DNA from: Gammaproteobacteria bacterium
GTDB lineage: Bacteria; Pseudomonadota; Gammaproteobacteria; Burkholderiales; Thiobacillaceae
Assembly (NCBI GenBank): GCA_018820765.1
Contig: JAHJNN010000018.1
Coordinates: 1-64,000, forward strand
DNA length: 64,000 bases
Reading direction: 5' to 3'
The translations under genes were made by a program, and so were the position numbers. Positions 6,851-57,094 of the stretch are shown piece after piece. Numbering within the stretch: the first letter of the stretch is position 1; the number at the start of each line of letters is the position of its first letter. A model generated the notes under the pieces. That model made no database searches. It was given only the letters and a program-made list of their open reading frames with translations, and was not told the origin of the DNA.

Positions 6851-6851
6851 G

Positions 6852-8915: not shown

Positions 8916-9073
8916 CAGTGGTGTGGGAGCTGTTCGATGAGCCATGAGGCAATTACGGGTGAAGACGAGAAAGCGCCTTCCCGGGACAGTGCGATTTGTT
9001 CGAATCGTGCCGCAATGAGTGCGAAGAGCGTGACAGGATGATCCTGGTTGTTGGGTTCTTCTATGGAAGTCAC
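8915..9073 (-). CDS. 52-aa ORF coupled to traI
   Basis: Proposed small gene running from GTG 9071-9073 to TGA 8915-8917, overlapping the traI ATG by one base. The translation is protein-like: PVTLFALIAARFEQIALSRE followed by SPVIASWLIEQLPHH. The frame stays open upstream to about 9145, also with amphipathic coding-quality sequence (AKAESIASRALSLLAQ), so the true start could be a rarer codon further up. I do not recognise the family. Its position, directly ahead of the relaxase and behind the shared 22-bp element, suggests a role in transfer or in control of traI translation. Confidence 0.5.
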   Translation of the reverse strand: MTSIEEPNNQDHPVTLFALIAARFEQIALSREGAFSSSPVIASWLIEQLPHH

Positions 9074-9109
9074 GGGCACTCTTTGCGCGAGGAGTGAAAG
9101 TGCCCGTGA
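9070..9109. repeat. 11-bp perfect inverted repeat in the traI-operon leader
   Basis: TCACGGGCACT (9070-9080) and AGTGCCCGTGA (9099-9109) are exact complements separated by 18 nt. In the leftward transcript the downstream arm contains the GTG proposed for the 52-aa ORF, so a hairpin could mask that start. There is no T-run on either side, which argues against a terminator. An oriT hairpin is the alternative; no nick site can be identified. Confidence 0.6.
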
Positions 9110-9154
9110 TGCTATGGACTCGGCCTTGGCTATGCAGCAGTTAATTCAAACAAA

Positions 9155-9176
9155 GTTTTTTTGATTGATTGCTGAA
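9155..9176 (-). promoter_or_regulatory. 22-bp element shared by both transfer operons, copy 1
   Basis: Read on the minus strand this is TTCAGCAATCAATC, then seven A and C. The identical 22 bp occur on the plus strand at 23202-23223. Here it lies about 80 nt upstream of the 52-aa ORF/traI operon and points toward it. After the exact match both copies continue with similar bases (TTTGTTTGAATT here, ATTCTTTTGATTT there). This fits a common activator site or promoter core for the divergent tra operons. Confidence 0.65.
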
Positions 9177-9351
9177 GTGTTTTTTGTTTTGTGGTACGCG
9201 TTTTTATGGCAGTAAGTCTCGAAATATAGAATGTCGTGGCCTTATGCGAATTCCCGCCCAAACCCGATACTTGACGTTGTAAAGTTGGCTGTCATCTTTC
9301 TGTCACTCATGAAGTTGAGCATAGCGCCGTCCAGATTGCCTATATCCGGCC

Positions 9352-9912
9352 ATGCCACTTCCCAACCACAACGACGTGCCCTATCTGCCTGATGGCGCAT
9401 GCGAAACCGAGCCGCCTCGTTCGCCTTACCCCCTATGGCTGACCCTGGCGATCTTCCTCGGCGTCTTCGCCGTGCTGCAATGGGCATGGGGCGAAGCGCG
9501 CGACACCTGGGTCGAGCGACTGGTGATTCACCAGGCCACGGTCAAGCCCGCCGCCGCGATGGTGCAAGTCATCACGCCCGAAGCGAACGCCAGACCGGTC
9601 TCCGCCAGCATCAAGGCCCCCGGCGGCGGACTCAACATCCTCAACGGCTGCGAAGGCACCGAAGTCATGTTCCTGCTCGTCGCCGCCTTCGCCGCCGTTA
9701 ATCTTGGCTGGCGGCAAAGACTGATTGGCCTCGGTCTGGGGCTGGTTCTGGTCTTCGTGCTCAACCAAGCGCGCATCCTGACGCTCTTCTATGCCTTCCG
9801 TAACGAGCGCAGCCTGTTCGACATTCTTCATACCACTGTCCTGCCTGCGGTGCTGATCGCGGCGGTCGCCCTGTACTTCTATGCCGTCCTCCATCGCAGC
9901 CGCCTGGCCTAG
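9352..9912 (+). CDS. Exosortase, short XrtH-like form
   Basis: 186-aa polytopic inner-membrane cysteine transpeptidase/protease expected to recognise and process a C-terminal sorting signal on exported proteins. The exosortase active-site pattern is complete: catalytic Cys in LNGCEGTEVMFLLVAA (about residue 104), Arg in LNQARILTLFYAF (about 140) and His in LFDILHTTVLPAVL (about 160), each at the edge of a membrane helix. Its short length and the separate membrane partner gene overlapping its 3' end match the exosortase H type. The likely substrate, with a VPLPAWA-type tail, is two genes downstream. The assignment to XrtH in particular is inference. Confidence 0.82.
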   Translation: MPLPNHNDVPYLPDGACETEPPRSPYPLWLTLAIFLGVFAVLQWAWGEARDTWVERLVIHQATVKPAAAMVQVITPEANARPVSASIKAPGGGLNILNGCEGTEVMFLLVAAFAAVNLGWRQRLIGLGLGLVLVFVLNQARILTLFYAFRNERSLFDILHTTVLPAVLIAAVALYFYAVLHRSRLA

Positions 9913-10486
9913 TCCGGGCCGGTTCGCGCTGGCGCTGATTCCTGGTCTCGTCCTAACGCTGGCCATCGCCTGGCTGTGGGGCGCGACGCTCGTCGAAGCC
10001 ATCCTGCCCGCCACCCGGATCATGCTCGGCTGGATCGACGACCGCTTCGGCATTCTGTTTCTCGGCGTCGAGCACAACTGGCAGGACACCGTGGTCAGGC
10101 TCAGGGTGAACATCCTCCAGCTCTTCGTCATGGGCGGACAGGTGATCGGCGAGAGCCCGACCGGCTGGCTCGAAGTCACCACCACCACCGGCGCGATGCT
10201 GCAACCGCTGGTCATCGGCCCGGCCATCGCCTTCGCGTTGCCGGGCGCTGTCCGGACGAGAATCCTTGCCTTCGCGCTTGCCACGCTCCTGGCCTTCGGC
10301 TTTCTGCTGATCGATCTGCCGCTCACGCTACATGCCTACGTGTGGGACATGTTTGTCGACTACCTCGACCCCGACCGTTTCTCGCCGCTGATGGTCTGGC
10401 ATGAATTCCTGCATGCGGGCGGGCGGTTGGGCGTCGCGGTGATTCTGGGGCTCGCGGGGTGGCGGCTGGCGCGCAAGGCTGCCTGA
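9881..10486 (+). CDS. Exosortase H-associated-type membrane protein
   Basis: 201-aa membrane protein whose ATG lies 32 nt inside the exosortase gene, implying coupled translation. Membrane segments include FALALIPGLVLTLAIAWLWG (about residues 15-34), LQPLVIGPAIAFALPGA, ILAFALATLLAFGFLLIDL and a last helix GVAVILGLAGW. Between the first two is a soluble part with GVEHNWQDTVVRLRVNI. Size, topology and position agree with the partner protein found beside exosortase H in other proteobacteria. What the partner does is not known to me; helping to present or process the substrate is a guess. Confidence 0.65.
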   Translation: MPSSIAAAWPSPGRFALALIPGLVLTLAIAWLWGATLVEAILPATRIMLGWIDDRFGILFLGVEHNWQDTVVRLRVNILQLFVMGGQVIGESPTGWLEVTTTTGAMLQPLVIGPAIAFALPGAVRTRILAFALATLLAFGFLLIDLPLTLHAYVWDMFVDYLDPDRFSPLMVWHEFLHAGGRLGVAVILGLAGWRLARKAA

Positions 10487-10630
10487 ATGGGTTTGCTCAT
10501 AAATCCGCCGCGCTGTCTATACAACTTTAGTCTAAGAGCCGTAAGGCTCATGAAACCGCTGACTGATTCAGATGTAACTGACACACTCATTCCGTAGCCT
10601 TCCTTCCGTCCAGCCCTTGGGAGAAGGCTC

Positions 10631-12130
10631 GTGAACCAACAACAAATCGCCACGCTATTACTCGCGCTGACCGTGGCTTCGTCAGCCCATGCGACTGACG
10701 ATGACGCGCGCGCCAAGGGGATCAAGTGGTTGGTGCAAACCCAAAAGGGCGATGGCTCGTTTGTTGGCTTGCAGGGTCTGGAAGTGCAGTCCACCTCGGC
10801 AGCGGTGGAAGCGATGCTCGCGGCGGGTCTGACACATTCCCCGCAATATGCGCGTGCACTCAGCTGGCTTGCCAATGCGCCGGGCGGCAGCCTGGATTCG
10901 CGTGCATGGCAGGTTGCCGCGCTGGCGGCGGCGGGACGTGATGCCAAAACCATCGCAGGCACGATCCGCGACGAACGCAATATCTATGTGGTGCAATCCG
11001 GCGGTTCGCCGACGAGCGGCGGGGCAACCTGGGGCGCCTATCCAGGCTATGGCGCGAGCACCATCGACACCGCGCTGGGCTACGGTGCGCTTCGCAGTGC
11101 GGGAGTGAGCTACACGAACGACACCAGCAACCTGACCTACACGGCTCTTTGCAATATTCTGCCGGCCCAGCTCACTGGTTCGCCCTGGAGCGGTGCATGG
11201 CCGCACGCGCTGCCGCAAAGCAACCAGCCCTCCAATGCATCGTCCGGCTCGCTGGCTGCCACCGCGATCATGCTGTACGAATTCAAGAAGCAGCGTCAGG
11301 CCGGGCGTTTCCTGTCCGGAAGTGCCTGCAGCAAGACCTCGCCTGGCGCGATCGACACCGCCATGACCAGCGCCAAAACCTGGCTCATCGCCCAGGCCAA
11401 CGGCGATGGCGGCTTCGCCGAACGCAACCCGCAGACCGGCAATCTGGAAGCCTCCGCGCCGGTGGCCACGGCCATGGCGATCCGTGCGTTGGCGCTGTTT
11501 GCCGCGGAAGGCGACACCGCCGCCGGCAGCGCGATCGCGAGCGCCCGCACCTGGATGGACGCCCAGCAAAACGCCGACGGCAGCTGGCACGGCGATCCCT
11601 TCGTCACCGCCCGCGTCGTGGCCGCGCTGCCTGCCGCTGCGGGGGCGCAGCTCACCGACAGCGATCAGGATGGCCTCACCGATGTAGTCGAACAGCAGCT
11701 CGGCACCCAGACCCTGGTCGCCGACGCGCAGGGCCAACTCGATCCGTACGCCAATGCCGTTCCAGGGATCACCGCGACCTCGTTCAGCGTTGCTGCCAAC
11801 CTCAACGAAGCGTTCAGCTACACCGTTTCCGCTTCGGGGGGCAACGGTCCGTTCGTCTTCGCCCTCGTCAACGGCGCCTTGCCGCCGGGGCTCACGATGG
11901 CGGCCAACGGCCAGATATCCGGTTCGCCTTCAGCGTTGGGCAGCTATGCCTTCGATTACGAAGTCACGGACGCGGCCAGCACCAAAACCCTTGTCATTGG
12001 CCGTATCGATGTGGCGGAGGCGCCCGCACCCTCCGATGGCGATGTTCCATTGCCCGCCTGGGCCCTGGTGGCGCTGGGAGCGGGACTCGTGGGTGCCATG
12101 CGTCGTCATTCCAGGCGTGCGTCCGCCTGA
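10631..12130 (+). CDS. Secreted cyclase-fold (squalene-cyclase repeat) protein with C-terminal sorting signal
   Basis: 499-aa exported protein. The start is GTG 10631 with GAGAAGG upstream, followed by a Sec signal (MNQQQIATLLLALTVASSAHA). Residues about 30-340 carry prenyltransferase/squalene-oxidase-type repeats, seen as QTQKGDGSFVG, QANGDGGFAE and QQNADGSWHG. A TSP3-like calcium motif follows (DSDQDGLTDVVEQQLG, about 345-360), then a putative Ig-like He_PIG domain (GALPPGLTMAANGQISGSPS, about 415-435). The C-terminus is a tripartite sorting tail: VPLPAWA, a hydrophobic helix (LVALGAGLVGA) and a basic end (MRRHSRR). It is the obvious substrate for the adjacent exosortase. No catalytic Asp-rich cyclase motif was seen, so a structural or binding role is more likely than terpene chemistry. 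Confidence 0.75.
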   Translation: MNQQQIATLLLALTVASSAHATDDDARAKGIKWLVQTQKGDGSFVGLQGLEVQSTSAAVEAMLAAGLTHSPQYARALSWLANAPGGSLDSRAWQVAALAAAGRDAKTIAGTIRDERNIYVVQSGGSPTSGGATWGAYPGYGASTIDTALGYGALRSAGVSYTNDTSNLTYTALCNILPAQLTGSPWSGAWPHALPQSNQPSNASSGSLAATAIMLYEFKKQRQAGRFLSGSACSKTSPGAIDTAMTSAKTWLIAQANGDGGFAERNPQTGNLEASAPVATAMAIRALALFAAEGDTAAGSAIASARTWMDAQQNADGSWHGDPFVTARVVAALPAAAGAQLTDSDQDGLTDVVEQQLGTQTLVADAQGQLDPYANAVPGITATSFSVAANLNEAFSYTVSASGGNGPFVFALVNGALPPGLTMAANGQISGSPSALGSYAFDYEVTDAASTKTLVIGRIDVAEAPAPSDGDVPLPAWALVALGAGLVGAMRRHSRRASA

Positions 12131-12181
12131 CGCGCGCGCCCAAATCGCACAAACAAAAAAGATCATCCAGGGAGCTACCCC

Positions 12182-15100
12182 ATGTCTTGTCCGACCCTGC
12201 ACCGCCTGATCCTGACGGCCGTCATCAGCCTCTCGGCCTTGGCAGCGACCGCCGCGCCGCACCAGGAAATCGCCCCCATGCCGGCGGAGGCCGTGCAAGC
12301 CGTGCGCGACGCGCAGCACGGGCGTCCAGACCCGATGGCCATGGCGCTGGACCGCCACTTGCGTGAAGGGCTGGAATTGGCGGATCGCGGCGAACGAGCT
12401 GCCGCAAAGTTCAAGCAGAAGAGCGCCAAGGCGCTTGAAATCCAGACCGCGCTGGCCAGCCGCCAAGCCGAAGCCGCCGCCAAGCGGCAGGAAATGCTCA
12501 TCCTGCGCGACGAGGTTCTCGCCCGGCTTGACCGCGAGGCGGAGGCGCTGACCGCGCAGGGCAAATCCGGTGAGGCGTCGCAGGCCGTCAAGTTCAAGCA
12601 GAAACTGGCTACCCGATTCAATACCATCACCCAGGATCTGGACGATCTTTCGAAGGCCGATAAAACCAACCTCGATGCCCGCGCCAAGCGGGCCGCCAAC
12701 CGCATCAAATCCTGGCTCGCCGCGAGGCCGGTCGAGCCCTTGCCGCAGCCTAACTGGAAGCAAGCCGAGCCCGTCGCCCCGATCGCGCTGCCGCCCGCCA
12801 GGAACGTGCCAAGCTTTGTCTCCGATGCGGCCTGGCTGATGCAGCAAAAAATAGCCAGTCGCAACGGCTTCGTCCAGGTCGCACTGCGAGATACGCCGGC
12901 CGAGGCCACCGCCTGCGGCTACGCCGCAGGCGATCTCGCCGACACCGCCGAAGCGCCGAAGGCGCATCCCGACATCGTCGCGCTGGCCAAGCAACTCGAT
13001 TACAACCCGGTGCGGATGTTCGAGTGGGTCAACCAGAACATCAAGTTCGAGCCTTACTACGGCTCGATGAAGGGCGCGGTCGGCACGTTGTGGAGCAAAT
13101 CGGGCGGCGCCACCGACCAAGCCAGCCTGCTGGCCGCGCTGCTTCGCGCCTCCAACATTCCGGTGCGCTATGTGCGCGGCAACATATCCGTGCTTGACAA
13201 CGCGGCTCTGGGTGCGGGCGGACGCGGGCCGCGTTGGGTTGGCGCCAAGAGCTATCAAGCCGCTGCCAGCGTTCTGGCAAACAACGGCAATCCGTCCGCC
13301 GGTTACGGCAGCAACAGCATCAGTCTGGCGCACGTCTGGGTCGAAGCCTGCCTCCCCTATGCCGCCTATCGCGGCACCGCGCTCGACGACTCCGGACACC
13401 GCTGGGTCCCGCTCGACCCCTCGTACAAGGACCAGCGCTACCAGACCGGCGTCGCGGTCGATGGCACGTTCGACTTCAATTACAGCAACTGGCTGGCGAG
13501 CCGCCTGGACGCCAACGGCAACTACACCCTGCCGCAGGAAGCCTTTGAAGACCAAGTCGCCACCCACGCCAAGACCAAGGCACCCAACTACGCCAACACC
13601 ACGCTGGAAGACGTCCCCTACAAATCCGAAATCAAGCGCCAGCGTTACGACATCCTGCCCATCGTGCCGCCTTACGAAGTGCTGCAATACACCAGCTGGA
13701 GCGGGGTGGCGAACGAGTCGGCCGAAACCGCCGCGCTGCCGGAGCGCCACAAGTACCGCTTGCTGGTCGCGGTTAAAAAATTGAACGACAGCCTGCTTGC
13801 GCAAAAAACCCTCGACCTCGCCGAACTGGCCAGCAAACGCCTGACCCTCTCGTTCAAGGGCGCGACCCCAACCGATCAAACCGCCTTCGACACCTGGTTC
13901 AACGCCGTTGATCCCGCCGTCAGTCCCACCTGCGCGACCACCGTCAATATGGTGCCCTCGATCAAGCTCGAAGGCGCCGAGCAAACCAGCGAGGCGGGCA
14001 GCGGCAACACCCTGCTGTGTTCGAAGGACAACAAGCTGACCCTGACGGTCACCCTGGCCGAGTTGGGTGCCTCCGCGACCCGCGCCAATGCCACGTACGC
14101 CAACATCGGCGCCGCCAACCTGCATGCCCTGCACGCCTACGCCTGGCACACCTCCGACACCTATCTGGCCAAGCGCTCCGATCAACTGCTGACCAATGTG
14201 CGCGCCAACAGCAGCAACCCCAACGCCGACCGCGACGGTATCGAAGGCGAATTTCTCAACATCGCCGCCAGCAAATACAGCCGCTATGTCGCCGACGCCA
14301 ACCAGCGCGTAGGCGGATTGTTCGGCGAATCCGGCACCCTCGGAACGAGCCTCGGCCTCACCGCCGCCCAGGTCAAGGTCAACTATTTGTTCGATCTGCC
14401 CTATGGCCTGTTCCGCAAGGGTTTCCTGATCGACTGGCCGGGCAACGTCTCCACCAGCACCCGGCTGGATACGCCCAGCACCACCGACAAGCGCGCTTTC
14501 AAGCTATCCGGATTTGCCGCCTCCGCTTATGAAGCCTACATCTGGAACGAAGTCGCCAACCTCGACGCCATTTCCACCACGCGCGGCTTGCAGTTCGCCG
14601 ACGAGCAGAACATCGAAATCCTGCAGATCAACACCAGCACCGACTGGACCAACAACAAGTGCAAGCTCACCAATACCTGTGCCAGTGGCGCGCTCAACAC
14701 CAACCCGGCAGGTACCAATTACAGCGCTTCGCACGTCAGCCAGATCGAAACGCAATACGTCAACCAGGGCTACAAGCTCACCATCCCGCGCCGTCTGCTC
14801 CAGTATCCCGACGCCAGCGGCTGGTTGGGCGCGACCTTCTACGGAGAAAAGTTCGTCACCAGCGGGACATCGTCCGCTTCCTTCCCCATCAACGGCTATT
14901 CCGGCGGCGTCACCATCGACCCTTCCGGCAGTACGTCCGGCACGACAGGCTCGACCGACGGCTCATCCTCCGGCGGCTACCCCGTAGGCGACCCTTGGGG
15001 CAGCCTCTACAACCCCTCATTGGGCACCGGCATCCAGGCCGACCCCTTCGCCCCCACCTTCGCCCAGCAATCCGGCATCAACGGTTACCAGACCGCCAAC

Positions 15101-18100
15101 GGCTTCGGCACCGGCACCAGCGCCTCCGGCGACCCCGTCAACATGGTCACCGGCAACCTCATCCACTCCGAGCGCGACATCGCCATCAAGGGCCGCGGCG
15201 GCCTGCCGCTGGTGTTCGAGCGCTGGTACAACTCGAAGTCCACCAAGGACGGCCCGCTCGGCTTCGGCTGGACCCACAGCTTCAACCACTCGCTGCGCTT
15301 CTACGGCGTCGAGAGCGGCGTCGCAAAAGTCTCGTGGACCGACGGCACCGGCGGCGAACGCTTCTTCTCCACCGCCAACCACGTCAGCGGCAACATCAGC
15401 GTCGGTGCAGCATTCTCGGGAACCGCCGGCGTCTACGCCACCCTCGAACGCCTCACCGGCGGCACCTACCGCCTCACCGAACGCAGCGGCATGCAGTACG
15501 TCTTCGAGAGCGTGAACGCCACCGCCACCGACACCAGCCAGAAATCGCGCCTGCTTTCCATCGCCGACAAGAACGGCAACACCCTGACCCTGTCCTACAC
15601 CGCCGCCACCGGCTGCACCGGCACCTATGTCTGCAAGGTCACCGACAGCCTCAACCGCGCGCTCACCTTCACTTACAACGGCAGCCGCATCAGTCAGATC
15701 GCCGACTTCACAGGCCGCACCTGGCAATACACATACGACACCAACAACGACCTCGTCACCTTCAAGAACTCGCTCGCCGTCGCCGGCACACAACCCGCCG
15801 TCACCTACCAGTATTACGGCAGCCTCGACGGAACCAAGCTCGCCCACGCCATGAAGCAGTACCAGCTGCCGCGCGGCAACGGCATGCGTTTCGAGTACTA
15901 CGCCAACGGCCGCGTCTTCCGCCACACCCCGTTCGACACAACCGGTAGCCTCAAGACCGACCACGCCACCACCTTCGCCTGGACCGAGTTCCGCCGCGAA
16001 GCCAAACAGATCGACGCCCTCGGCAACGAGCGCCGTTTCCTGTTCGACGCCAACGGCAACCCCCTGTCCATCACCGACGAAGCCGGCGCCGAAACCAGCT
16101 ACACCTACGACACCACCGCCGGCCGCACCCACCTGCGCCAGAGCAAAACCGACCCGCAGGGCATGACCACCGCCTACGCCTACGACACACTGGGCAACCT
16201 CAGCGACGTCACCCTGCCGAGCACCCGCACCCTGCAATATCGCGACCACACCGCCTATGGCCAGCCCAAGCGCGTCAAGGACGCCGACGGCAACTGGACG
16301 CTGAACCGTTTCAACAGCGCGGGTAATCTGACCGACGTCATCCGCGTCAAGGCAGGCGTCACACCCACCGCCGACACCAAACCCGCCAACGCCGACATCC
16401 TCGCCTGGACGCAGTTCCAGGCAGACAGCGCCGGTAACCCCGTCAAGACCCGGAGCCTCAGGGACTGGACGACGACAACGCTCGGCGACGCCACGAGCGG
16501 CACCGGCCCCAGCCTCGAAACCGCTTGGGACGCCAACAAGCTCAACCGCGTTAGCGTGACGCGCCGCGGCGACACCGACGGCACCCCCGTCAGCCTGGAG
16601 ACCGACGTCTACACCGACTTCGTCCACGACACCCTCGGCCGCATGACGCGCGGGCCTGACCAGAACTGGTACGCCGCCGACACCCTGTACGACCCCCTCG
16701 ACCGTCCCATCAAAACCCCAGACGGTCGCGGCCATCAGTGGGACACCGTCTACGACGCTAACGGCAACCCGCTCACGGTCGGCCTCACCATTAACGGCGC
16801 CTACCTCGACGGCTACTACGCCGCCTGGGACGACCTCGACCGCCTCGACAGAAAAGTCGACTACGCCGGCAACGCCACCCTCACGCAATACGACCCGCTC
16901 GGCCGCGTCAGCCAGATCACCGAAGCCGACGGCTACACGATCGGCTTCGACCGCGACGCCATTGGCCGCGTCACCGGCGCCTACAACCAGGAAGGCCATC
17001 GCGCGAGCCTCAGCCTCGACGCCGACGGAAGACCGCGCAGCAGCACCGACCCCAACAACCTGACCACGAGCTACGAGTATTACCACGCCAGCGAAGACGG
17101 CCGGCTGAAGAAGACCACCCTGCCCACGGTGACCGGGCAAGCGCAAGGTAAAGCAGCCGAAATCGCCAGCTACGACGGCCAGGGCCGCCCCACAAAAATC
17201 AACGCCACCGCCGCCGACGGCACGCTCCGCGACAGCTACCGCTTTTACGACGAACTCGGAAGATTGACCCGCGAAGTCGGCCCTCAGGTCAGCACCACCG
17301 ACAGCAGCCGTCCCGTCAGCTGCACCGTCTACACCGCGCTATCCGACGTCAAGGAAATCTGGGCCGGCAGCACCACCGACACCACCAGCAAGACCTGCGA
17401 CCTCATCGGCGACGCCAACCTCAAAAAGCAAGTCAGCCGCACCTACGACGACTTCGGCCGCAAACTCAGCGAGACCGACCAGAACGGCAAGGTCTGGAAA
17501 TGGACCTGGAACCTCCACAACCAGCTCGTCAGCAGCCAGACCCCCACCCAGATTGCAGCCGGCCAGAGCACCACCTATGCCTACGGCACAAAAGGCGTAA
17601 CAGGCGAAACCCAGGGCCAGCTCAAACAGCGCAGCGTGCCCGGCGCGCAGACCGCCGTCTACACCCGCGATGCGCTCGGCTTCGTGACGAAAGCCGAAAC
17701 CAAAAACGGCAGCAACAGCCTGGTCGTCGCCTACGACTACGCCTACGATCCCGCCAAGCGCCTGCAAAGCGTCACAGACTCCAGAGGCAACAAGCAGCTC
17801 AGCTACACCTGGACCCCTGGCGGTCGTCTGGCCATGGTCGCCGACAGCGACGGCCACCAGGCCAGCATGAGTTACGACGCTACTGGCCGCCTGGCCAGCG
17901 TCACCGCCCCCAACGGCGAGACCATCGGCTTCAGCTACGACGCCGGCGGCCGGTTGGTCGAGACGCGCCTCAACTCCGGCCAGCGCACCACCCAGAGCTG
18001 GTTCGAGGACGGCGGGCTCAAGCAGAAACAGAACCTCTTCAACACGACGGTTCTGACCAGCCACCTCTATACCCTCGACAACCAGGGCAGGAGAAGCGGC

Positions 18101-19705
18101 CAGACCGAGACGATCAACGCCAGCACCAAGACCTGGAGCTACCTGTACGACAACCTCGACCGCCTGACCGAGGCGAACGACGGCACCGCCGAGACCTACG
18201 GCTACGACATCTTCGGCAATCGCAGGACGAAGACCAGGGGAGCCACGACAACGGCGTATCTGTATGACGATGCGCATCAGTTGAGCGAGATCAGGGACGG
18301 ATCGGATACAGGGACGCTGACCGGCGCGGCGGTGCACGACGCCGACGGGCACATGGTCAAGCTGTGTGAGGTATCGAGCGGCGGCACCATCACCCAGCCC
18401 GCAGGCGACTGCACCGCCAGCGGCACCGGCGCGACCACGCTGGCTTTGGTGTGGAACGCACTCGACCACCTCAACACCGCGACAAGAACCGGCGCCAATG
18501 CCATAGCGGAAAGCTACGCCTACGACGACAGCGGCAGACGGATCAGCAAGACCAGCGCAGGGACCACGACGAGCTACCTGTACGAGGGCGACGCGATTCA
18601 CGCCGAGTGGACGGGCAGCATTAGCGGAAACCCGACAGCCGCTTACGTCCACGGGGCAGGCATCGATGAGCCGCTGCTGCGGCTCACCGGAACCACCAGC
18701 AGCCCGGCAGCAACGCAGGCGGCTTACCTGCAGGATGGACTCGGCAGTGTCGTCGGTACGACAAACGTAACCGGCACGCTGACCGCGAACCAGCGCTTCG
18801 ATGCGTGGGGCAACAAGACCACGAGCAGCGGCACGATTCCGCAGTACGGCTATACCGGGCGTGAGCCTGATGCGACGGGGATGACGTTCTACCGGGCGCG
18901 ATACTACCACCCAGGCATCGCAAGGTTCGCATCGAGAGATCCGATGGGGATGGCGGATTCAGTATCGCCTTATGCCTACGTGGCGAACAACCCCATCAAC
19001 CTGATTGATCCGATGGGCTTGGAAGCGCTGCTGTCAGGCACGCCCATGTCAGCGGCGTATTGGAACATGCTGGCCGATGCGAGCTTCTACACCGGTATAC
19101 AAACCGACGTTCGGGACGGGGGCAACAGCGGGACGTTCACGCCGGGGCAGCAGAGTTTGCAGAATGCGAGCGGCTCCAGCACCCTGGATAAAGTTCAGTT
19201 CGGCCTCGACCTTCTCGGATTAACTGAGCCCTTCGGCGTGGCCGCCGACTTGGTCAATGCGGGTATCTCTTATGGCAGGGGGGATGCGCTTGGTGGGTCA
19301 CTCTCCCTGGGCGCGGCCATACCTGTGATCGGGGCAGCAGCAACAACCGGAAAGCTCGGCTCGAAAGCTGCTGATGTGTTGCAGGCGAACAAAGCGGCAG
19401 GCGATGCGTTCGAGCAAGCCATTGGGACTGAATTGAGGGCAACACACGAAATTGCCGTCCCACAAATAACAATCAAAACTCCCAGTGGCACACGTACACG
19501 CGTGGACTACGTAACTCGGGATGGAACCCAAATTGGCTGTGTGGAGTGCAAGGCTTCAGCGACTGCCCCTTTAACCAGTAATCAAGCTTCAGGTTTTCCT
19601 GAAATCCTGCAAAATGGCGGAGTTGTTGTTGGCAAGGGCAAACCTGGCGTTCCTGGCGGCACGGTTATTCCGCCAGGCACCCAAGTCATAATCCGGCGGC
19701 CATAA
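12182..19705 (+). CDS. Giant secreted RHS-repeat protein with transglutaminase-like domain and nuclease tip
   Basis: 2507-aa polymorphic-toxin-type protein. It has an N-terminal Sec signal (LILTAVISLSALAATAA) and a charged helical region to about residue 180. A transglutaminase-like domain spans about 260-420: TDQASLLAALLRASNIPVRY, then LAHVWVEACLP with the His, then RWVPLDPSYK with the Asp; the usual Cys is missing. DUF6531 starts near 980 (GDPVNMVTGNLIHSERDIAI). Dozens of RHS/YD repeats form the shell. The RHS core ends near 2250-2285 (RYYHPGIARFASRDPMGM, then LIDPMGLEALL). The variable tip ends in a PD-(D/E)XK-type nuclease (RTRVDYVTRDGTQIGCVECK, about 2437-2456), so a DNase is likely. The immunity gene follows after 10 nt. 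No type VI genes are near, so delivery presumably relies on Sec and the outer membrane. Confidence 0.88.
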   Translation: MSCPTLHRLILTAVISLSALAATAAPHQEIAPMPAEAVQAVRDAQHGRPDPMAMALDRHLREGLELADRGERAAAKFKQKSAKALEIQTALASRQAEAAAKRQEMLILRDEVLARLDREAEALTAQGKSGEASQAVKFKQKLATRFNTITQDLDDLSKADKTNLDARAKRAANRIKSWLAARPVEPLPQPNWKQAEPVAPIALPPARNVPSFVSDAAWLMQQKIASRNGFVQVALRDTPAEATACGYAAGDLADTAEAPKAHPDIVALAKQLDYNPVRMFEWVNQNIKFEPYYGSMKGAVGTLWSKSGGATDQASLLAALLRASNIPVRYVRGNISVLDNAALGAGGRGPRWVGAKSYQAAASVLANNGNPSAGYGSNSISLAHVWVEACLPYAAYRGTALDDSGHRWVPLDPSYKDQRYQTGVAVDGTFDFNYSNWLASRLDANGNYTLPQEAFEDQVATHAKTKAPNYANTTLEDVPYKSEIKRQRYDILPIVPPYEVLQYTSWSGVANESAETAALPERHKYRLLVAVKKLNDSLLAQKTLDLAELASKRLTLSFKGATPTDQTAFDTWFNAVDPAVSPTCATTVNMVPSIKLEGAEQTSEAGSGNTLLCSKDNKLTLTVTLAELGASATRANATYANIGAANLHALHAYAWHTSDTYLAKRSDQLLTNVRANSSNPNADRDGIEGEFLNIAASKYSRYVADANQRVGGLFGESGTLGTSLGLTAAQVKVNYLFDLPYGLFRKGFLIDWPGNVSTSTRLDTPSTTDKRAFKLSGFAASAYEAYIWNEVANLDAISTTRGLQFADEQNIEILQINTSTDWTNNKCKLTNTCASGALNTNPAGTNYSASHVSQIETQYVNQGYKLTIPRRLLQYPDASGWLGATFYGEKFVTSGTSSASFPINGYSGGVTIDPSGSTSGTTGSTDGSSSGGYPVGDPWGSLYNPSLGTGIQADPFAPTFAQQSGINGYQTANGFGTGTSASGDPVNMVTGNLIHSERDIAIKGRGGLPLVFERWYNSKSTKDGPLGFGWTHSFNHSLRFYGVESGVAKVSWTDGTGGERFFSTANHVSGNISVGAAFSGTAGVYATLERLTGGTYRLTERSGMQYVFESVNATATDTSQKSRLLSIADKNGNTLTLSYTAATGCTGTYVCKVTDSLNRALTFTYNGSRISQIADFTGRTWQYTYDTNNDLVTFKNSLAVAGTQPAVTYQYYGSLDGTKLAHAMKQYQLPRGNGMRFEYYANGRVFRHTPFDTTGSLKTDHATTFAWTEFRREAKQIDALGNERRFLFDANGNPLSITDEAGAETSYTYDTTAGRTHLRQSKTDPQGMTTAYAYDTLGNLSDVTLPSTRTLQYRDHTAYGQPKRVKDADGNWTLNRFNSAGNLTDVIRVKAGVTPTADTKPANADILAWTQFQADSAGNPVKTRSLRDWTTTTLGDATSGTGPSLETAWDANKLNRVSVTRRGDTDGTPVSLETDVYTDFVHDTLGRMTRGPDQNWYAADTLYDPLDRPIKTPDGRGHQWDTVYDANGNPLTVGLTINGAYLDGYYAAWDDLDRLDRKVDYAGNATLTQYDPLGRVSQITEADGYTIGFDRDAIGRVTGAYNQEGHRASLSLDADGRPRSSTDPNNLTTSYEYYHASEDGRLKKTTLPTVTGQAQGKAAEIASYDGQGRPTKINATAADGTLRDSYRFYDELGRLTREVGPQVSTTDSSRPVSCTVYTALSDVKEIWAGSTTDTTSKTCDLIGDANLKKQVSRTYDDFGRKLSETDQNGKVWKWTWNLHNQLVSSQTPTQIAAGQSTTYAYGTKGVTGETQGQLKQRSVPGAQTAVYTRDALGFVTKAETKNGSNSLVVAYDYAYDPAKRLQSVTDSRGNKQLSYTWTPGGRLAMVADSDGHQASMSYDATGRLASVTAPNGETIGFSYDAGGRLVETRLNSGQRTTQSWFEDGGLKQKQNLFNTTVLTSHLYTLDNQGRRSGQTETINASTKTWSYLYDNLDRLTEANDGTAETYGYDIFGNRRTKTRGATTTAYLYDDAHQLSEIRDGSDTGTLTGAAVHDADGHMVKLCEVSSGGTITQPAGDCTASGTGATTLALVWNALDHLNTATRTGANAIAESYAYDDSGRRISKTSAGTTTSYLYEGDAIHAEWTGSISGNPTAAYVHGAGIDEPLLRLTGTTSSPAATQAAYLQDGLGSVVGTTNVTGTLTANQRFDAWGNKTTSSGTIPQYGYTGREPDATGMTFYRARYYHPGIARFASRDPMGMADSVSPYAYVANNPINLIDPMGLEALLSGTPMSAAYWNMLADASFYTGIQTDVRDGGNSGTFTPGQQSLQNASGSSTLDKVQFGLDLLGLTEPFGVAADLVNAGISYGRGDALGGSLSLGAAIPVIGAAATTGKLGSKAADVLQANKAAGDAFEQAIGTELRATHEIAVPQITIKTPSGTRTRVDYVTRDGTQIGCVECKASATAPLTSNQASGFPEILQNGGVVVGKGKPGVPGGTVIPPGTQVIIRRP

Positions 19706-19715
19706 GGAGTGGTGT

Positions 19716-20072
19716 GTGCGATTAACAGATACAAATACAGTTGATTTTCTCGGGTTAGAGAAAGATACAGGATATGTGGTGCTGACCCTTGTCGATGATT
19801 TTGATTGGGTGGACGACATACAGCACCTTTCCCTGTTGCAATCAAAGGTTAATCGCTATTTTGATTTTATTGAGAGTGGCGAAGTGTACGAACAATTACG
19901 AGAAACTACTGGCCGTGAGGTGGGCAAAGAAACTCCTATCAAGATCAGTATTCTGGCAAAGCATGAGCCAAGTAGCGAAGGCCGTAGATTTATGGAGCAT
20001 TTGGCACATGTAGCCGAGGATGCCGGTATGAGTTTTTCATTCAAGGTGATACCTGTAGATGGCGTGTACTGA
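19716..20072 (+). CDS. DUF6572-type protein, probable immunity to the RHS nuclease tip
   Basis: 118 aa, GTG start at 19716 with AAGGAG six nt upstream. The sequence DTNTVDFLGLEKDTGYVVL, then LVDDFDWVDDIQHLSLLQSK, then YFDFIESGEVYEQL follows the DUF6572 pattern, a small cytosolic family found next to polymorphic toxins. It lies 10 nt after the RHS stop codon, on the same strand, and is clearly more AT-rich than the RHS core, as toxin-tip cassettes usually are. The cognate-immunity role is inferred from position; binding to the nuclease tip is untested. Confidence 0.72.
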   Translation: MRLTDTNTVDFLGLEKDTGYVVLTLVDDFDWVDDIQHLSLLQSKVNRYFDFIESGEVYEQLRETTGREVGKETPIKISILAKHEPSSEGRRFMEHLAHVAEDAGMSFSFKVIPVDGVY

Positions 20073-20120
20073 ATTTTGTGTGAGCGGACCTTTTCAGGAA
20101 ACTGCTGATTCCTTGTCCGG
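20069..20120 (+). repeat. IS256-like end repeat, copy 1
   Basis: About 52 bp starting in the stop codon of the DUF6572 gene. It aligns with 20962-21011 through the blocks TTTTGTGTRARCGGACCTTT, CAGGAAACTGC and CTTGTCCGG, with a few mismatches and a short indel. In copy 2 the same sequence leads directly into the start of an IS256-type transposase, so this is probably the left end of such an element that has lost its body. Confidence 0.7.
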
Positions 20121-20122
20121 GT

Positions 20123-20413
20123 CAAGCTAGGGGACATTTATTGGGCAATCAGCTTGGTGGTTCTGGAAGCGATGCTCGTAACCTTGTAACCATTCAGCAG
20201 AATCCCGCTAACTCTCCGGTTATGCGGGGTTATGAGAATCAAGTTCGCTCAGCGGTAGAGCAAGGCCAAGTTGTGAGGTATTCGGCCACGCCAATCTATA
20301 ACGGGTCGGAACTTGCGCCACGCGGTATCAAAATCAATGGCTCTGGTTCGCAAGGATTTACACTTGACGTTACGATCCTTAACCCGCTTCTTAACAGCTC
20401 AATACTGATTGAC
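20123..20413 (+). pseudogene. Orphan RHS toxin-tip remnant (C-terminal half of a DNA/RNA non-specific endonuclease)
   Basis: An open frame without its own convincing start. Just after the IS-end repeat it reads QARGHLLGNQLGGSGSDARN, then LVTIQQNPANSPVMRGYENQ and PIYNGSELAPRGIKINGSGS. This is the characteristic C-terminal half of NucA/Colicin-type DNA/RNA non-specific endonuclease toxins attached to RHS proteins. The metal-binding N-terminal half (DRGH-type) and any RHS linker are missing. The frame runs without a stop into the immunity gene, which normal toxins do not do, so the cassette has been truncated and fused during displacement. Confidence 0.7.
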
Positions 20414-20947
20414 ATGAGCATCGAGCAGTTAGAAAAAATACTGGAGCCGCCAATTGACCCTGTAGACCGTCCTGTGGCTAATGGCTGGTCTGCCGTCGAG
20501 AAAAAGCTTGGCAAATTACCAGATGACTATAAGCGTTTTATAGAGATGTATGGGACAGGAAGCATTGACGGTTTTGTGTGGATTTTTAATCCATTCGCGG
20601 CTAATAAAAATCTAAATTTGTTGGATCAGGTACTAATAAAAATTAGCGCGTTGAGTGATCTTGGCGATACCTTTGGCGAGGCGATTCCTTTCCCGTTATT
20701 CCCGAAGCCAAATGGTCTTTTACCATTTGGCGTAACTGATAATGGTGACGTTCTGTTTTGGCAAGCGGCGAGTAATCCTGCTGGCTGGAAAGTCATCATC
20801 AACGCGGCAAGAGAACCAAAGTGGAAACAATACGATGTGGGTATCACCGACTTGCTGACGGGATTGCTATCACGACAAATGATTTGTGAGGTATTTCCTG
20901 GTGACTTCCCAAGTGATCGACCAGTGTTTTACCCGAGTGTCTTGTAA
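20414..20947 (+). CDS. SMI1/KNR4 (SUKH) family immunity protein
   Basis: 177 aa if translation begins at ATG 20414 (MSIEQLEKILEPPIDPVDRP). The same frame extends 91 codons upstream through the toxin remnant. SUKH hallmarks are the N-terminal WSAVEKKLGKLPDDYKRFIE, then YGTGSIDGFVWIFNPF and the central PFGVTDNGDVLFWQ. SUKH proteins are common immunity proteins for RHS/CdiA nuclease toxins and act in the cytosol by binding the toxin. It now stands next to a broken toxin tip, so it would be an orphan immunity gene that could protect against siblings still carrying the intact tip. Confidence 0.75.
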   Translation: MSIEQLEKILEPPIDPVDRPVANGWSAVEKKLGKLPDDYKRFIEMYGTGSIDGFVWIFNPFAANKNLNLLDQVLIKISALSDLGDTFGEAIPFPLFPKPNGLLPFGVTDNGDVLFWQAASNPAGWKVIINAAREPKWKQYDVGITDLLTGLLSRQMICEVFPGDFPSDRPVFYPSVL

Positions 20948-20961
20948 GTGTCGGGCCTGTC

Positions 20962-21011
20962 CTGAGTTTTGTGTAAACGGACCTTTGGCAGGAAACTGCC
21001 GACTTGTCCGG
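20962..21011 (+). repeat. IS256-like end repeat, copy 2
   Basis: About 50 bp starting 15 nt after the SUKH stop codon, related to 20069-20120. It ends 7 bp before the ATG of a truncated IS256-type transposase, which identifies it as the element's left end. The two copies flank the orphan toxin/immunity module as direct repeats and could have served as recombination sites. Confidence 0.7.
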
Positions 21012-21018
21012 AGACACA

Positions 21019-21072
21019 ATGAGCACCAAGAAACACGACGTACCTGACGCCTTGCTGGCCAGCCTGCTGGCC
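21019..21072 (+). pseudogene. IS256-family transposase, N-terminal stub
   Basis: The reading frame MSTKKHDVPDALLASLLA is the recognisable N-terminus of IS256-type transposases. The usual continuation (a YxxPEDLxGxxGLLKxL-like segment) is absent, and the sequence switches to an unrelated one. No DDE domain or right end follows before the PLD gene, so only about 18 codons survive. Confidence 0.6.
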
Positions 21073-21226
21073 GTACACCGGGCTTGTGATGTAATTTCAA
21101 TTGTCTGGTGTACGGTTCTGAACGTGGCTTCGAAGGTGTGTCTAGGAAATCGGTCAATTTATCTTGAGCGCAGGACGCCGCAGCTAGTGACGCGCTTACC
21201 CAATATATTCCTTGGAGGAGAGACGC

Positions 21227-22873
21227 ATGCGCAAGCTGAAGACAAATTCACAGGACGATTTTCGCGTCAAAGCTTATGCGGGCACCAACGGAGTTCTGCT
21301 GGCTTTTGATCTCGCGGAATCGCGACGGCAGGGCTTGCTGGGCTTTGCGATCGAGCAGAAGGAAGGCTCGCAGAAATGGCAGTGGCTGCTCAACAGCCTG
21401 ACGTTCCCGGACCGAGCGCACACCTTGCCGAAGTGGAATGCCACGCCGAGCAACATTGCACCGATCCAGAAATTCCGATGGGCAGACTACAGTATCGAAG
21501 CGAACACAGCATGCAAGTACCGCGTGCACCTGGTCTACGGTACGCCGGATGCGCCCGAGCTGGGCGAGTCGCTCGAAGTGACTGTGACCACTGACGACGG
21601 CAAGCCCAAGGACCATCGGGTGATCTTCAATCGCGCAGTTGCCGCAAGCCAGTCCTTCGGACGCCAGTTCCCCAAACTCGACGCGCTGCTTAGCGCCAAT
21701 AAAGACCTGCCCATCGAGGACTGGCCGGCGAAGCCGCGGAACTGGCTTCAGCACGGCCTGCTCGATCAAATCCTCGCGTTCATCGAGCGAGCCAAGAGCG
21801 ACAAGTGGACGCTCGACATTGCCATCTATGAGTACGAACTCAAGGCCATCGTCGATGCCGTGAACGCGGCGCACAAGCGCGGTGTGAAAGTGCGAGTGCT
21901 TTATCATGCCAAGGCGGGAGACGAGCAGACGGAGCAGAATGAAGCGAGTCTCAAGAAGATCCCCGCAGCAAAGAAGCGTGCGCGGGAAACGCAGAAAATA
22001 TTTCACGACAAGTTTATCGTACTCGGCAAGATCAACGCTGCCGGCGATCATGTTCCCCGGGCGGTGTTGTGCGGCAGTACCAATTTCACCGAGAACGGCG
22101 TCTACCGGCAGGCCAACGTCGTGCATGTTGCCGATGACAAGTCCATCGCTGCCAGCTATCTGCAACTGTTCGACGTGATCTGGGATGATCCTGCCGACGT
22201 CGCCGCCACGCGTAAATGGATCAGCACGAACAACCCGATAGACCCGACGCAGGCGCTGTTCGCAGGGTTCTCGCCGCGCTCTGGCGGCGCAGACCTTGCC
22301 GAGTTCATCAACATTATCAACGCGGCCGACAAGGACCTGCTGTTCGCCACGGCGTTCATGCTGCCCGAGGCCATCCTCGATGCCCTGCTTGGCGCAGAGA
22401 ACGACGATGTGCTGCGCTATGGCATTCAGAACACCGCCAGCCGCATCACGGGATTTCATGCGGACAGAACCGCTGAATTCACCGCCACAGCCTTGCTCTC
22501 GAAGGGACTGGAAGGTTGGGTGAAGGAGGGCTTGAAAGGACAGCGGGGCAATCTGCTGGTGCACCTCAAGGCCATCGTTGCCAACTTCACCACCGACGCC
22601 CCCGTGGTGGTCAGCGGCAGTCACAACCTCAGCGCCGCCGCGAGCAACGGCAATGACGAGAATTACCTCATCATCCGTGGCGACACCGATCTGGCGGATC
22701 GCTATGGCCTGGAGATACTGCGCTTCTACGAGCACTACCGGTTTCGTTACTATGCCAAGCTGCTCAAGCTGAAGCAGGTCCGCCCGTTGGCCATTGACGG
22801 CAGTTGGGCTGATGCCTACTACACGGACGGTAGCCTCAAGGCGCTGTCTAGGCTGCGCTTCTCCGGGAGGTAG
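21227..22873 (+). CDS. Phospholipase D-like (PLD-fold) protein with two HKD half-sites
   Basis: 548 aa. ATG 21227 is preceded by GGAGGAG at 21214-21220. It carries two PLD half-sites. The first is HDKFIVLGKINAAGD followed by CGSTNFTENG (about residues 260-295). The second is HLKAIVANFTTD followed by VSGSHNLSAAASNGNDEN (about 446-485), where the Lys is kept but the second Asp position differs. The N-terminal about 150 residues look like a beta-rich accessory domain. PLD-fold proteins include nucleases, some used in phage defence, as well as phospholipases; substrate cannot be told from sequence. It lacks a signal peptide, so it is cytosolic. It sits alone downstream of an IS remnant, as cargo of the element. 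Confidence 0.75.
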   Translation: MRKLKTNSQDDFRVKAYAGTNGVLLAFDLAESRRQGLLGFAIEQKEGSQKWQWLLNSLTFPDRAHTLPKWNATPSNIAPIQKFRWADYSIEANTACKYRVHLVYGTPDAPELGESLEVTVTTDDGKPKDHRVIFNRAVAASQSFGRQFPKLDALLSANKDLPIEDWPAKPRNWLQHGLLDQILAFIERAKSDKWTLDIAIYEYELKAIVDAVNAAHKRGVKVRVLYHAKAGDEQTEQNEASLKKIPAAKKRARETQKIFHDKFIVLGKINAAGDHVPRAVLCGSTNFTENGVYRQANVVHVADDKSIAASYLQLFDVIWDDPADVAATRKWISTNNPIDPTQALFAGFSPRSGGADLAEFINIINAADKDLLFATAFMLPEAILDALLGAENDDVLRYGIQNTASRITGFHADRTAEFTATALLSKGLEGWVKEGLKGQRGNLLVHLKAIVANFTTDAPVVVSGSHNLSAAASNGNDENYLIIRGDTDLADRYGLEILRFYEHYRFRYYAKLLKLKQVRPLAIDGSWADAYYTDGSLKALSRLRFSGR

Positions 22874-23276
22874 GCATCAGAGAGCTTTTGCAGCCAGCGT
22901 CAACCTGACGCATGGATGTTAGGCGATGGACGGGCCGCGCTGCTGCCCGAATTCCCAAGAGGCACCCCACTGCTGCGTACCCCGACCGTCATCGAGAAAC
23001 GCGAAGCGTCCGCTGGCGAGTTGCGCTCTTTGTCCGGCCATTTTTAGCCCTTAACCAGTAAGCCGTTTCCCCTTAAGCCCCCAGTGTTCCTTTGTGTTCG
23101 CGTCTATTCAAGCGAACAAGCCCTTTCGGGTAAGTCCCTTGGCCCTTATTGGTTTTTCCTTTTTTGGGCAACCGATCATTTTATCCATTTCTGATTTTGT
23201 TTTCAGCAATCAATCAAAAAAACATTCTTTTGATTTCCGCTGGAAGCGGGATGAGCGCATCCCTAGCATTCGCCCC
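22874..23276. promoter_or_regulatory. Leader region of the rightward transfer operon
   Basis: 403 nt without a supported gene. The first half is GC-rich. The second half is T-rich and contains copy 2 of the 22-bp element at 23202-23223. The promoter of the 20-kb pilus/secretion operon must lie here, but no textbook -35/-10 pair stands out. A frame continues for 57 codons after the PLD stop codon; see rejected items. Confidence 0.5.
23202..23223 (+). promoter_or_regulatory. 22-bp element shared by both transfer operons, copy 2
   Basis: TTCAGCAATCAATC, seven A, then C: identical in all 22 positions to the minus-strand copy at 9155-9176. It lies 53 nt upstream of the first gene of the rightward tra operon and points toward it, the same relative arrangement as the copy ahead of the traI operon. 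Confidence 0.65.
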
Positions 23277-23741
23277 ATGGTTTCCCTCTCCTCCCCTTGG
23301 GTTGTCCTCCTGACGGCCCTTTTTTATACCCAAGCCCACGCCTTCTGTTTTGATGAGGCGGGGGCGATGTACGGGGTCTCACCACTATTGCTGAAGGCGG
23401 TGGCCCAAGTTGAGTCGAATATGAGACCGCATGCGGTTAACAGCACTCACACAGCGAGTACGCAGTCTCAGGACATTGGGCTGATGCAGATCAATACCCG
23501 GTGGCTGCGGAGAAACCCAATCAAGTCACTCGGATACACCGAGGCCCACCTCTACGATGCCTGTACGAGCGTCAAGCTGGGTGCCTGGGTGCTGGCGAAC
23601 AACTTCAATCGATATGGCGCTTCGTGGGAAGCAGTCGGTGCCTACAACGCGGCATGCACGCGACTAACAGGCGATGCATGCCGCCGCGCACGAAATAGCT
23701 ATGCCTGGAAAGTCTACCAAGCAATGAGGAAATCCTCATGA
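23277..23741 (+). CDS. Lytic transglycosylase (VirB1/TraT-type), opens the wall for the pilus
   Basis: 154 aa from ATG 23277. It has a signal peptide (SPWVVLLTALFYTQAHA), then an SLT domain: AGAMYGVSPLLLKAVAQVES with the catalytic Glu, DIGLMQINTRWLR (the GLMQIN motif), and YGASWEAVGAYNAACT. It would cleave peptidoglycan in the periplasm to let the type IV channel pass. The start is uncertain: no good ribosome site precedes 23277, and the frame is open to 23094, but the signal peptide fits only the later start. Its stop overlaps the next ATG by 4 nt. Confidence 0.85.
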   Translation: MVSLSSPWVVLLTALFYTQAHAFCFDEAGAMYGVSPLLLKAVAQVESNMRPHAVNSTHTASTQSQDIGLMQINTRWLRRNPIKSLGYTEAHLYDACTSVKLGAWVLANNFNRYGASWEAVGAYNAACTRLTGDACRRARNSYAWKVYQAMRKSS

Positions 23742-24259
23742 AATGCAAGTTCACATTGCTTGCCCTGATCTGGGCAGGTTCGTCGATGGCTGCCGACTGG
23801 CAGGTGACGCAATCTGATTCCATTAGCGCTTATGTCATGTGTCATGCAGGCGATTGCCTCGTAAGGACGGCGAAGGTGTTTGACCTTCCTGTACCCGTCC
23901 CCATGCCCGCGAGGAAATCGGATAGCGCTGCTAAGCCGGTCGCTGTGAGCTCTTCTACTTCAGTTCGATTTGCGTTGGCATCGGCTCGGCTCAGTCAGAC
24001 CGAGAAAGCCAAGCTCCATGCATTTCTCGAACGGCATCGTGACGCGAGACGTTTTCTGATTCTTGGCAGCACAGATCAGGTTGGCAAGAAACGATTTAAC
24101 GAAACCCTGGCGTACAAGCGCGGGATAGCGGTCGCGGCTTTTATGCGCGCAAACGGAGTCCAGAAAAGGAATATCAAAGTCGATTCGCGATGCTGCATCG
24201 AGTATCCGCCCAGCACGAACCCTAGCGCAAGACGTGCGGTGATCAGCATTAACGAATAG
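23738..24259 (+). CDS. OmpA/MotB-family periplasmic protein
   Basis: 173 aa with signal peptide (CKFTLLALIWAGSSMAA). The C-terminal half (about residues 85-170) is an OmpA-like peptidoglycan-binding domain: SVRFALASARLSQTEKAKL, then ILGSTDQVGKKRFNETLAYK, ending in PSARRAVISINE. The Asp and Arg of this fold that hold diaminopimelate are present in spirit (TDQVG, ARRAV). Two adjacent Cys (DSRCCIEY) are unusual. It overlaps the lytic transglycosylase gene and probably anchors part of the transfer apparatus to the cell wall. The exact family is not one I can name. Confidence 0.7.
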   Translation: MKCKFTLLALIWAGSSMAADWQVTQSDSISAYVMCHAGDCLVRTAKVFDLPVPVPMPARKSDSAAKPVAVSSSTSVRFALASARLSQTEKAKLHAFLERHRDARRFLILGSTDQVGKKRFNETLAYKRGIAVAAFMRANGVQKRNIKVDSRCCIEYPPSTNPSARRAVISINE

Positions 24260-24268
24260 GGATTGGGA

Positions 24269-24508
24269 ATGACAAAAAACACTACTGAGCCGGGATACAA
24301 GGCAGTCCTCGTGCGCGAGGAAACCAAACTCAAGCTGCAGATGCTTGGGAGAGCCCTTCCCAACAGAAACCTGTTCTTGGAAGGGCGGCTGGCCACAGCC
24401 GCCATTGAATACTGTCTGAACGATGAGACAGCGAGGCAAGCCATGCTGGATTTGGTGCGCAACATCGTGATGCGAGACCTTGAGACTGCTGAGACACCGG
24501 GACCATGA
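24269..24508 (+). CDS. Small ribbon-helix-helix-like protein ahead of the pilin gene
   Basis: 79 aa, ATG 24269 with GGGA before it. The order of a short strand (YKAVLVREET), a helix (KLKLQMLGRAL) and a second helix (GRLATAAIEYCLND) resembles the ribbon-helix-helix fold of small DNA-binding regulators such as TraY or CopG. No close family is recognised. It sits 37 nt upstream of the pilin gene in the transfer operon, where a regulator or oriT-binding accessory factor would fit; this is inference. Confidence 0.5.
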   Translation: MTKNTTEPGYKAVLVREETKLKLQMLGRALPNRNLFLEGRLATAAIEYCLNDETARQAMLDLVRNIVMRDLETAETPGP

Positions 24509-24545
24509 GACCCATCTTTCAATACATACGCTCAAGGAGAATCAA

Positions 24546-24863: not shown

Positions 24864-24888
24864 GCGAAGCATCACCGGACTGAACAGC

Positions 24889-27716: not shown

Positions 27717-27721
27717 AGAAC

Positions 27722-32742: not shown

Positions 32743-32743
32743 C

Positions 32744-33367: not shown

Positions 33368-33369
33368 AA

Positions 33370-34556: not shown

Positions 34557-34559
34557 TCG

Positions 34560-37632: not shown

Positions 37633-37690
37633 ATTGATTGGAATGAAAGGCGATCATGAAGTCATCTTTGTCACTAGCCATGCTCAGAAC

Positions 37691-38907: not shown

Positions 38908-38921
38908 ACAAGGAGTCCATC

Positions 38922-40391: not shown

Positions 40392-40397
40392 TCAGGC

Positions 40398-45105: not shown

Positions 45106-45131
45106 CAAGTCTCATGGTCTCAGTTTCTCAA

Positions 45132-57087: not shown

Positions 57088-57094
57088 GCTACGC

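Follow-up and report, generated by a model that had tools for sequence, protein, structure and literature searches.

The 64,000-nucleotide window analysed here (positions 1 to 64,000 of contig JAHJNN010000018.1, assembly GCA_018820765.1, Thiobacillaceae) derives from a sulfur-oxidising bacterium and contains the two transfer operons of an element that, judged by its sequence, looks dif-integrated and similar to the gonococcal genetic island (GGI). The relaxase operon lies on the minus strand and opens with a small open reading frame (ORF) of 54 aa (8915..9079, start GTG at 9079 or 9073), followed by genes recognised through domain matches: the relaxase gene traI (6852..8945; TraI_2 and TraI_2_C), the coupling protein gene traD (4790..6886) and a DUF4400 gene (4075..5130). 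The F-type pilus and mating-pore genes, likewise identified by domain matches, occupy 23277..43421 on the plus strand. They begin with an SLT lytic transglycosylase gene (23277..23741; the ATG is assumed, in a frame open from a GTG at 23094) and continue with OmpA-like, TraL, E, K, B (by its TrbI Pfam match), DsbC, V and C, and then with TrbI-F, S26 peptidase, W, U, TrbC, N, F, H and G, where TrbI-F scores below the Pfam cut-off and W is named by its place. Some 13.5 kb of cargo (9352..22873, plus strand) separates the two operons, which are divergent neighbours, with no cargo between them, in the related elements L187 and L188. We call the element GGI-like on the grounds of its TraI_2 relaxase, its F-type apparatus, an SLT-first operon divergent from traI, and dif sites at both ends, one of them partial.

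Both operons are preceded by the same 22-bp sequence, TTCAGCAATCAATCAAAAAAAC, which pattern searches of the window and the genome place without mismatch at 9155..9176 on the minus strand and at 23202..23223 on the plus strand, each copy being directed at its transfer operon; the first forms the left arm and A-run of the traI/traD operator described below. Copy 1 is 75 nt away from the small ORF's first GTG and about 210 nt from the traI start (8945), and copy 2 lies 53 nt from the ATG at 23277 that opens the pilus operon. No third copy with up to three mismatches is present in the window (mean 0.00 in 100 shuffles) or anywhere else in the genome (3,439,345 bases in 18 contigs; reversed-pattern control 0). 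The resemblance of the two leaders extends past the 22-mer, with a best ungapped match of 29 bp scoring 24 vs 13.5 for the top of 40 shuffles. The preliminary description of the window, made from its letters alone, thus stands in its observations: it had reported the exact pair, one copy per divergent operon at about 80 and 53 nt, similarity running on beyond the match, a chance origin as very unlikely and no third copy in the window, and the last of these now holds for the entire genome. It had named scattered occurrence of the 22-mer at unrelated places as evidence against the idea, and the genome holds just the two sites. What it overlooked is a hexamer, TAGCAT, situated 40 bp 3' of the 22-mer in both leaders.

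The hexamer is part of a larger site unit which, over four lineages with TraI identities down to about 63%, combines three parts: the left arm TTCAGCAATCAA, an imperfect dyad some 40 bp long, and a -10-like hexamer. In the window the dyad (site positions 1-44) covers 9133..9176 on the minus strand and 23202..23245 on the plus strand, and the site alignment puts the two -10-like TAGCAT boxes at 9109..9114 (minus) and 23264..23269 (plus), the latter 7 nt before the ATG. The distance of exactly 40 bp is kept in 20 of the 21 distinct sites (18 TAGCAT, one TAGTAT and one TACGAT), and the remaining site has TAGCAT at 41 bp. With a 68-position matrix built from 20 sites, at an effective number of 7 and excluding the site shifted to 41 bp, the two sites are the top hits of the 188-kb contig that carries the window (C17; 92.7 and 90.8 bits), followed by the reverse complements of the pilus and tra sites in third and fourth place (20.5 and 13.6 bits), with the next match at 4.3; in three further stretches scanned, from genomes G011, G012 and G023, the reverse complements again rank in this way. 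Complementary positions summed over eight representatives number 86 vs 51.4 +/- 3.8 in 1000 dinucleotide shuffles, a joint figure that overstates the evidence because the representatives are related, and tests of single sites gave p values from 0.0015 to 0.85.

The symmetry extends beyond the dyad itself. Mirrored across it, a TA hexamer occurs at the same spacing as the -10-like box in all 25 distinct sequences. On the pilus side these mirror boxes conform to TANNNT in 12/12 (TAAAAT, TATCCT, TACGAT and TATACT in the four lineages), the window's copy being TAAAAT at 23178..23183 on the minus strand with CTGAAA 17 bp upstream; on the tra side all 13 distinct sequences have TGNTA followed by varied bases, in the window TGG-TACGCG at 9192..9200 on the plus strand. 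A simple sigma-70 scan picks up the reverse pilus-side promoter (CTGAAA-17-TAAAAT, 9/12 to the sigma-70 consensus) and, facing the traI operon, a promoter further upstream at 9250-9223; it finds no operon-facing promoter ending at TAGCAT in the leaders. At a 17-bp spacer the operon-facing -35 positions are poor (CTGCAT and TGGAAG). Since a good -35 is missing towards the operons and the scan detects a promoter in the reverse direction, we read the site as regulator-dependent towards its operon and, given the mirrored TA hexamer, as probably bidirectional. The pilus -10-like box precedes the ATG by 7, 7, 7 and 6 nt in the four lineages, a spacing that would yield a leaderless mRNA; the SLT frame is open further upstream, which makes the start codon uncertain.

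Each leader carries a further inverted repeat. One, CACGGGCACT...AGTGCCCGTG (9071..9108, minus strand), lies just after the tra -10-like box and adjoins the GTG starts; it is strong, and similar hairpins are seen by eye in relatives. Compensatory pairs number 0/6 in this tra repeat, so that covariation is unsupported and no hairpin is claimed. The other, GTTCGC...GCGAAC at 23094-23117, is located upstream of the pilus promoter and recurs in the L187, L188 and L189 leaders; it is a candidate oriT or terminator.

An exact scan for the 22-mer with one genome per species returned 13 stretches, 12 of which belong to Thiobacillus, Hydrogenophilales or Betaproteobacteria assemblies and have tra- or pilus-type flanks. 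The thirteenth, a Methanosphaera contig (L012), was set aside as its surrounding DNA is unrelated. Within the genus, whose genome set overlaps that of the species-level scan, 15 of 56 genomes (our own counted) match at up to three mismatches, giving 26 sites with a reversed-pattern control of 0: 13 are exact, 8 have one mismatch, 3 have two and 2 have three. The 22-mer is therefore kept at the tra operons of related elements, a point on which the earlier proposal had been made to depend. By their flanks all 26 sites fall into the same two leader types, tra and pilus, and the adjoining transfer genes were seen directly for a subset of sites in related elements. The left arm is identical in all 26, an outcome that the search threshold favours. 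Diverged elements, namely those of G015 (TraI identity 75-76%) and G011 (66%) and the second element of G012 (63-67%), show the conserved unit to be longer than 22 bp. In a gapped alignment of the four lineages the left arm is invariant at 12/12 positions on the pilus side and 11/12 on the tra side. Invariant gap-free columns in the tra leaders are concentrated in the site (30/68 vs 14/87 upstream and 9/56 downstream). The site of the pilus leaders (31/67) is conserved no better than the stretch upstream (35/77, from the gapped count; the ungapped count of 11/85 understates it), meaning that there the whole leader is conserved and the left arm alone stands out. Scanning a viral collection with a 19-mer produced two matches, both unrelated by eye.

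By computation, then, there are two copies with conserved sequence and spacing, a joint dyad signal and a restriction to two operons, and together these represent a real, conserved twin regulatory site. An operator-promoter role for both transfer operons is likely; we infer from the sequence that the site is a promoter and that its regulator is an activator, and which gene product that activator is can be given as a reasoned guess. The preliminary description had suggested that the 22-mer was the operator or promoter core, and this persists in modified form: a shared promoter/operator is likely, but it goes beyond the 22-mer and takes in a dyad of some 40 bp together with a -10-like box. Our favoured reading, which we hold with reasonable confidence, is that the twin copies are a regulated promoter through which a dimeric, element-encoded regulator co-controls the relaxase/coupling and pilus operons, probably in both directions. 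One promoter would be present twice, with a 22-mer as the upstream half of each copy; in both, the dyad operator ends at the place of the -35, no good operon-facing -35 is present and the -10-like hexamer sits at fixed spacing. A dimeric regulator from the element would bind the dyad and contact RNA polymerase at the -35 position, as in class II activation, thereby switching both operons on together. Each operator probably fires both ways, and compact relatives have their two sites oriented towards one another in the gap that separates the divergent operons. In the window, transcription of the cargo from 9352 onwards would start at the mirrored promoter of the tra site (9192-9352), so that cargo could join the transfer switch. 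That the same switch-like promoter stands before both gene sets needed for movement from cell to cell suggests one regulator for both.

Published systems, cited here and below from parts of their text, offer several points of comparison. The boxes of SetCD (SXT/R391) and AcaCD (IncA/C) are shared operators directly upstream of the -35 at several transfer promoters (PMC4344509, PMC4207636), a geometry that our sites fit, although no good -35 is seen in them; class II geometry is common to both systems, and AcaCD has a divergent promoter region at traI (PMC4344509, PMC4207636). In contrast to the two sites found here, SXT/R391 shows nine major SetCD peaks per integrative and conjugative element (ICE), and our element differs further in lacking an FlhC-family gene and in having the mirrored -10-like box. 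An SXT-like function, a likeness drawn from described geometry, is plausible, whereas membership of the SXT group is not supported. The GGI shares dif ends and a traI-traD operon divergent from an F-type operon with ltgX first (PMC4207684, PMC3334931) and, by gene content, a ParA-ParB-DUF2857-DUF1845-SSB-TopB cluster (PMC4207684, PMC3334931). Its reported control involves RNA switches at parA and traH, a link to Fur and higher transcription in yaa mutants; the portions available of that literature describe no shared traI/ltgX operator (PMC8716806, PMC4207684), and our literature search turned up no paper on one. Nor, in the available parts of three accounts (PMC4207684, PMC8716806, PMC3334931), is an activator of both transfer operons described for GGI-like elements. 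The conserved twin operator offers a direct and cheap handle on which gene of the element activates the leader.

The element encodes, beginning at the end that lies directly upstream of parA, a cluster of ParA, ParB (TIGR03764), DUF2857, a PFL4669/AcaB-family protein (TIGR03761, PF08900), SSB and topoisomerase; PF08900/TIGR03761 we take to be the former DUF1845. The ParB-domain gene followed by a DUF2857 gene is the arrangement expected of a BisDC pair of the ICEclc type, and by this analogy the pair is our best, if still tentative, candidate for the regulator. The gene order parA, bisD, bisC of ICEclc (PMC7423338) corresponds to ParA, ParB, DUF2857 here, and ICEclc promoters share a 27-bp motif (PMC9286271). 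In the ICEclc-type cascade bisR and alpA act upstream of the activator; here the position directly before parA is taken up by the end of the element. The two systems differ in that our element has no site at the par/DUF2857 cluster and uses an F-type transfer apparatus. BisC is described as FlhC-like only; the structural model of our DUF2857 protein (C17:119381-119938; L227:11382-11939) appears FlhD-like in its first third, the rest seeming to resemble an FlhC chain. An alignment profile of DUF2857 gave no FlhC match among the sequences of solved structures. The FlhC family proper (PF05280) is absent from the element; its sole match in the genome (C1:35123-35638, 289.1 bits) is outside C17, so no SetC homolog belonging to PF05280 is encoded on the element. 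The suggestion in the preliminary description of a SetCD equivalent, by analogy with SXT-type ICEs, accordingly fares unevenly: an equivalent activator, with the BisDC-like ParB-DUF2857 pair as candidate, is plausible, and the element is neither SXT-type nor equipped with an FlhC-family gene.

We regard as possible, with considerable doubt, a more specific version in which the GGI-type 'partition' cluster is a transfer switch: ParB and DUF2857, the latter FlhD-like in its N-terminal and FlhC-like in its C-terminal part, would constitute an FlhDC-type master activator that binds one symmetric operator at both operons, fires both ways and produces a leaderless pilus mRNA. If true, this would account for the dependence of the gonococcal island on parA and parB in DNA secretion, and with ParB-DUF2857 as activator the logic of the ICEclc master activator would hold for another large group of elements, one whose mating apparatus is of a different type. 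Two observations weigh against the pair. It is missing from 6 of the 15 site-bearing draft genomes, and the matrix scan of the 188-kb contig yields the two sites alone, hence none near the ParB-DUF2857 genes; a feedback site at their promoter is thus not seen on that contig, assuming that the motif is the binding site. A different reader, the small ORF at 24263-24508, at first looked ribbon-helix-helix-like, yet its model has three helices (pLDDT, predicted local distance difference test, 74.4) and its conserved segment is retained in elements with other leaders, and it was rejected as first choice.

The dyad overlaps the promoter on both sides, covering the -35 positions, and could instead serve a repressor of the element that keeps the two operons off, in either direction, for as long as it is present; the fair -35 of the reverse pilus-side promoter (CTGAAA-17-TAAAAT) fits such an operator. 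We consider this unlikely, since the poor operon-facing -35 sequences and the lack of a scanned promoter ending at TAGCAT imply that the unaided promoters should be weak, and an HTH_3 gene of the element (contig positions 108621-109310) has no relative on the G012 stretch at 180-300 kb. Less probable still is a parS-like partition or oriT-like relaxosome site bound by ParB or accessory proteins, with secondary effects on transfer genes. ParB of NAH7 does activate transfer genes through its parS site (PMC12421886), a likeness of description that involves another plasmid and another site, and the oriT of the gonococcal island is placed between the two operons (PMC4207684); against this, an oriT needs one copy, here there are two, one per operon and both with a -10-like box at fixed spacing, and the inverted repeat at 23094-23117 would be our guess for a better oriT. 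That the flagellar activator FlhDC of the host reads the site seems very improbable: the genome encodes FlhC and the geometry is FlhDC-like, yet at up to three mismatches there is no further site genome-wide and so none at flagellar operons. A recent functionless duplication or gene conversion would account for the 22 identical base pairs and is the least credible explanation, as the -10 spacing is kept, the left arm is conserved in diverged elements and all four lineages retain both copies, which is clearest in the tra leaders, where the flanks have diverged.

Outside the genus the motif itself fades. Searching the order for TTCAGCAATCAA-N50-TAGCAT (399 genomes, up to two mismatches) gave matches in 66 genomes, with zero mismatches only in our own; the reversed-pattern control had just 5, so that by this control the forward pattern is enriched. 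By eye the mismatched hits look like chance matches, and the enrichment may stem from codon structure. Most leaders of distant relatives are without the motif. Of 24 loci scanned with a shift-tolerant matrix, 3 (L110, L201 and, on the opposite strand, L195) had their best match in the SLT leader, in a set where not every locus includes that leader and where AT-richness may help matches. Similarity between an element's two leaders exceeds all 40 shuffles in the window, L187, L188, L189 and L201, as well as in L118, where the shared region contains one palindrome and not a pair, and in L129 (a 13-mer); in 7 of 14 elements, G308 and G472 included, nothing exceeds them (L127, L195, L199, L200, L203, L202/L193 and L112). 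Fifteen further regions furnished only two or three usable leaders, and those of L275 and L283 lack an 8-bp dyad. G479 belongs to another genus of the family, and its SLT and traI-operon leaders have 24/25 bp of a different sequence in common (L201, 11320-11344 and 11639-11663); G308 has two exact CGCAATCG-N15-CGATTGCG dyads between its divergent operons (L127, 10828 and 10971), and the SLT leader of G472 holds a long perfect inverted repeat that is the best matrix match of its locus, on the opposite strand. A twin operator of element-specific sequence in other genera is, on these patterns, possible and not established.

The left end of the element is a dif-like Xer site (3913..3937, minus strand), and a partial partner marks the right end at C17:122576-122596. 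Both are named by their likeness to the dif consensus, and the gene beyond the right end is presumably glgC. Identical dif-like 25-mers occur in G023 (120815) and G001 (168931). One perfect and one imperfect dif site are also described for the gonococcal island (PMC3334931). A XerC-like tyrosine recombinase is encoded at 44137..45108 on the minus strand (TIGR02224, 342.3 bits, cut-off 335.15). Contig C18 of G012 seems to hold a tandem of two related elements (about 128-299 kb) at a hybrid dif-like site, 293314; both elements have a ParB-DUF2857 pair of their own. The element in the window also carries Wadjet-type defence genes (JetA, DUF4194 and JetD_C, 55915-63535), whose ORFs have relatives in G012 and G023.

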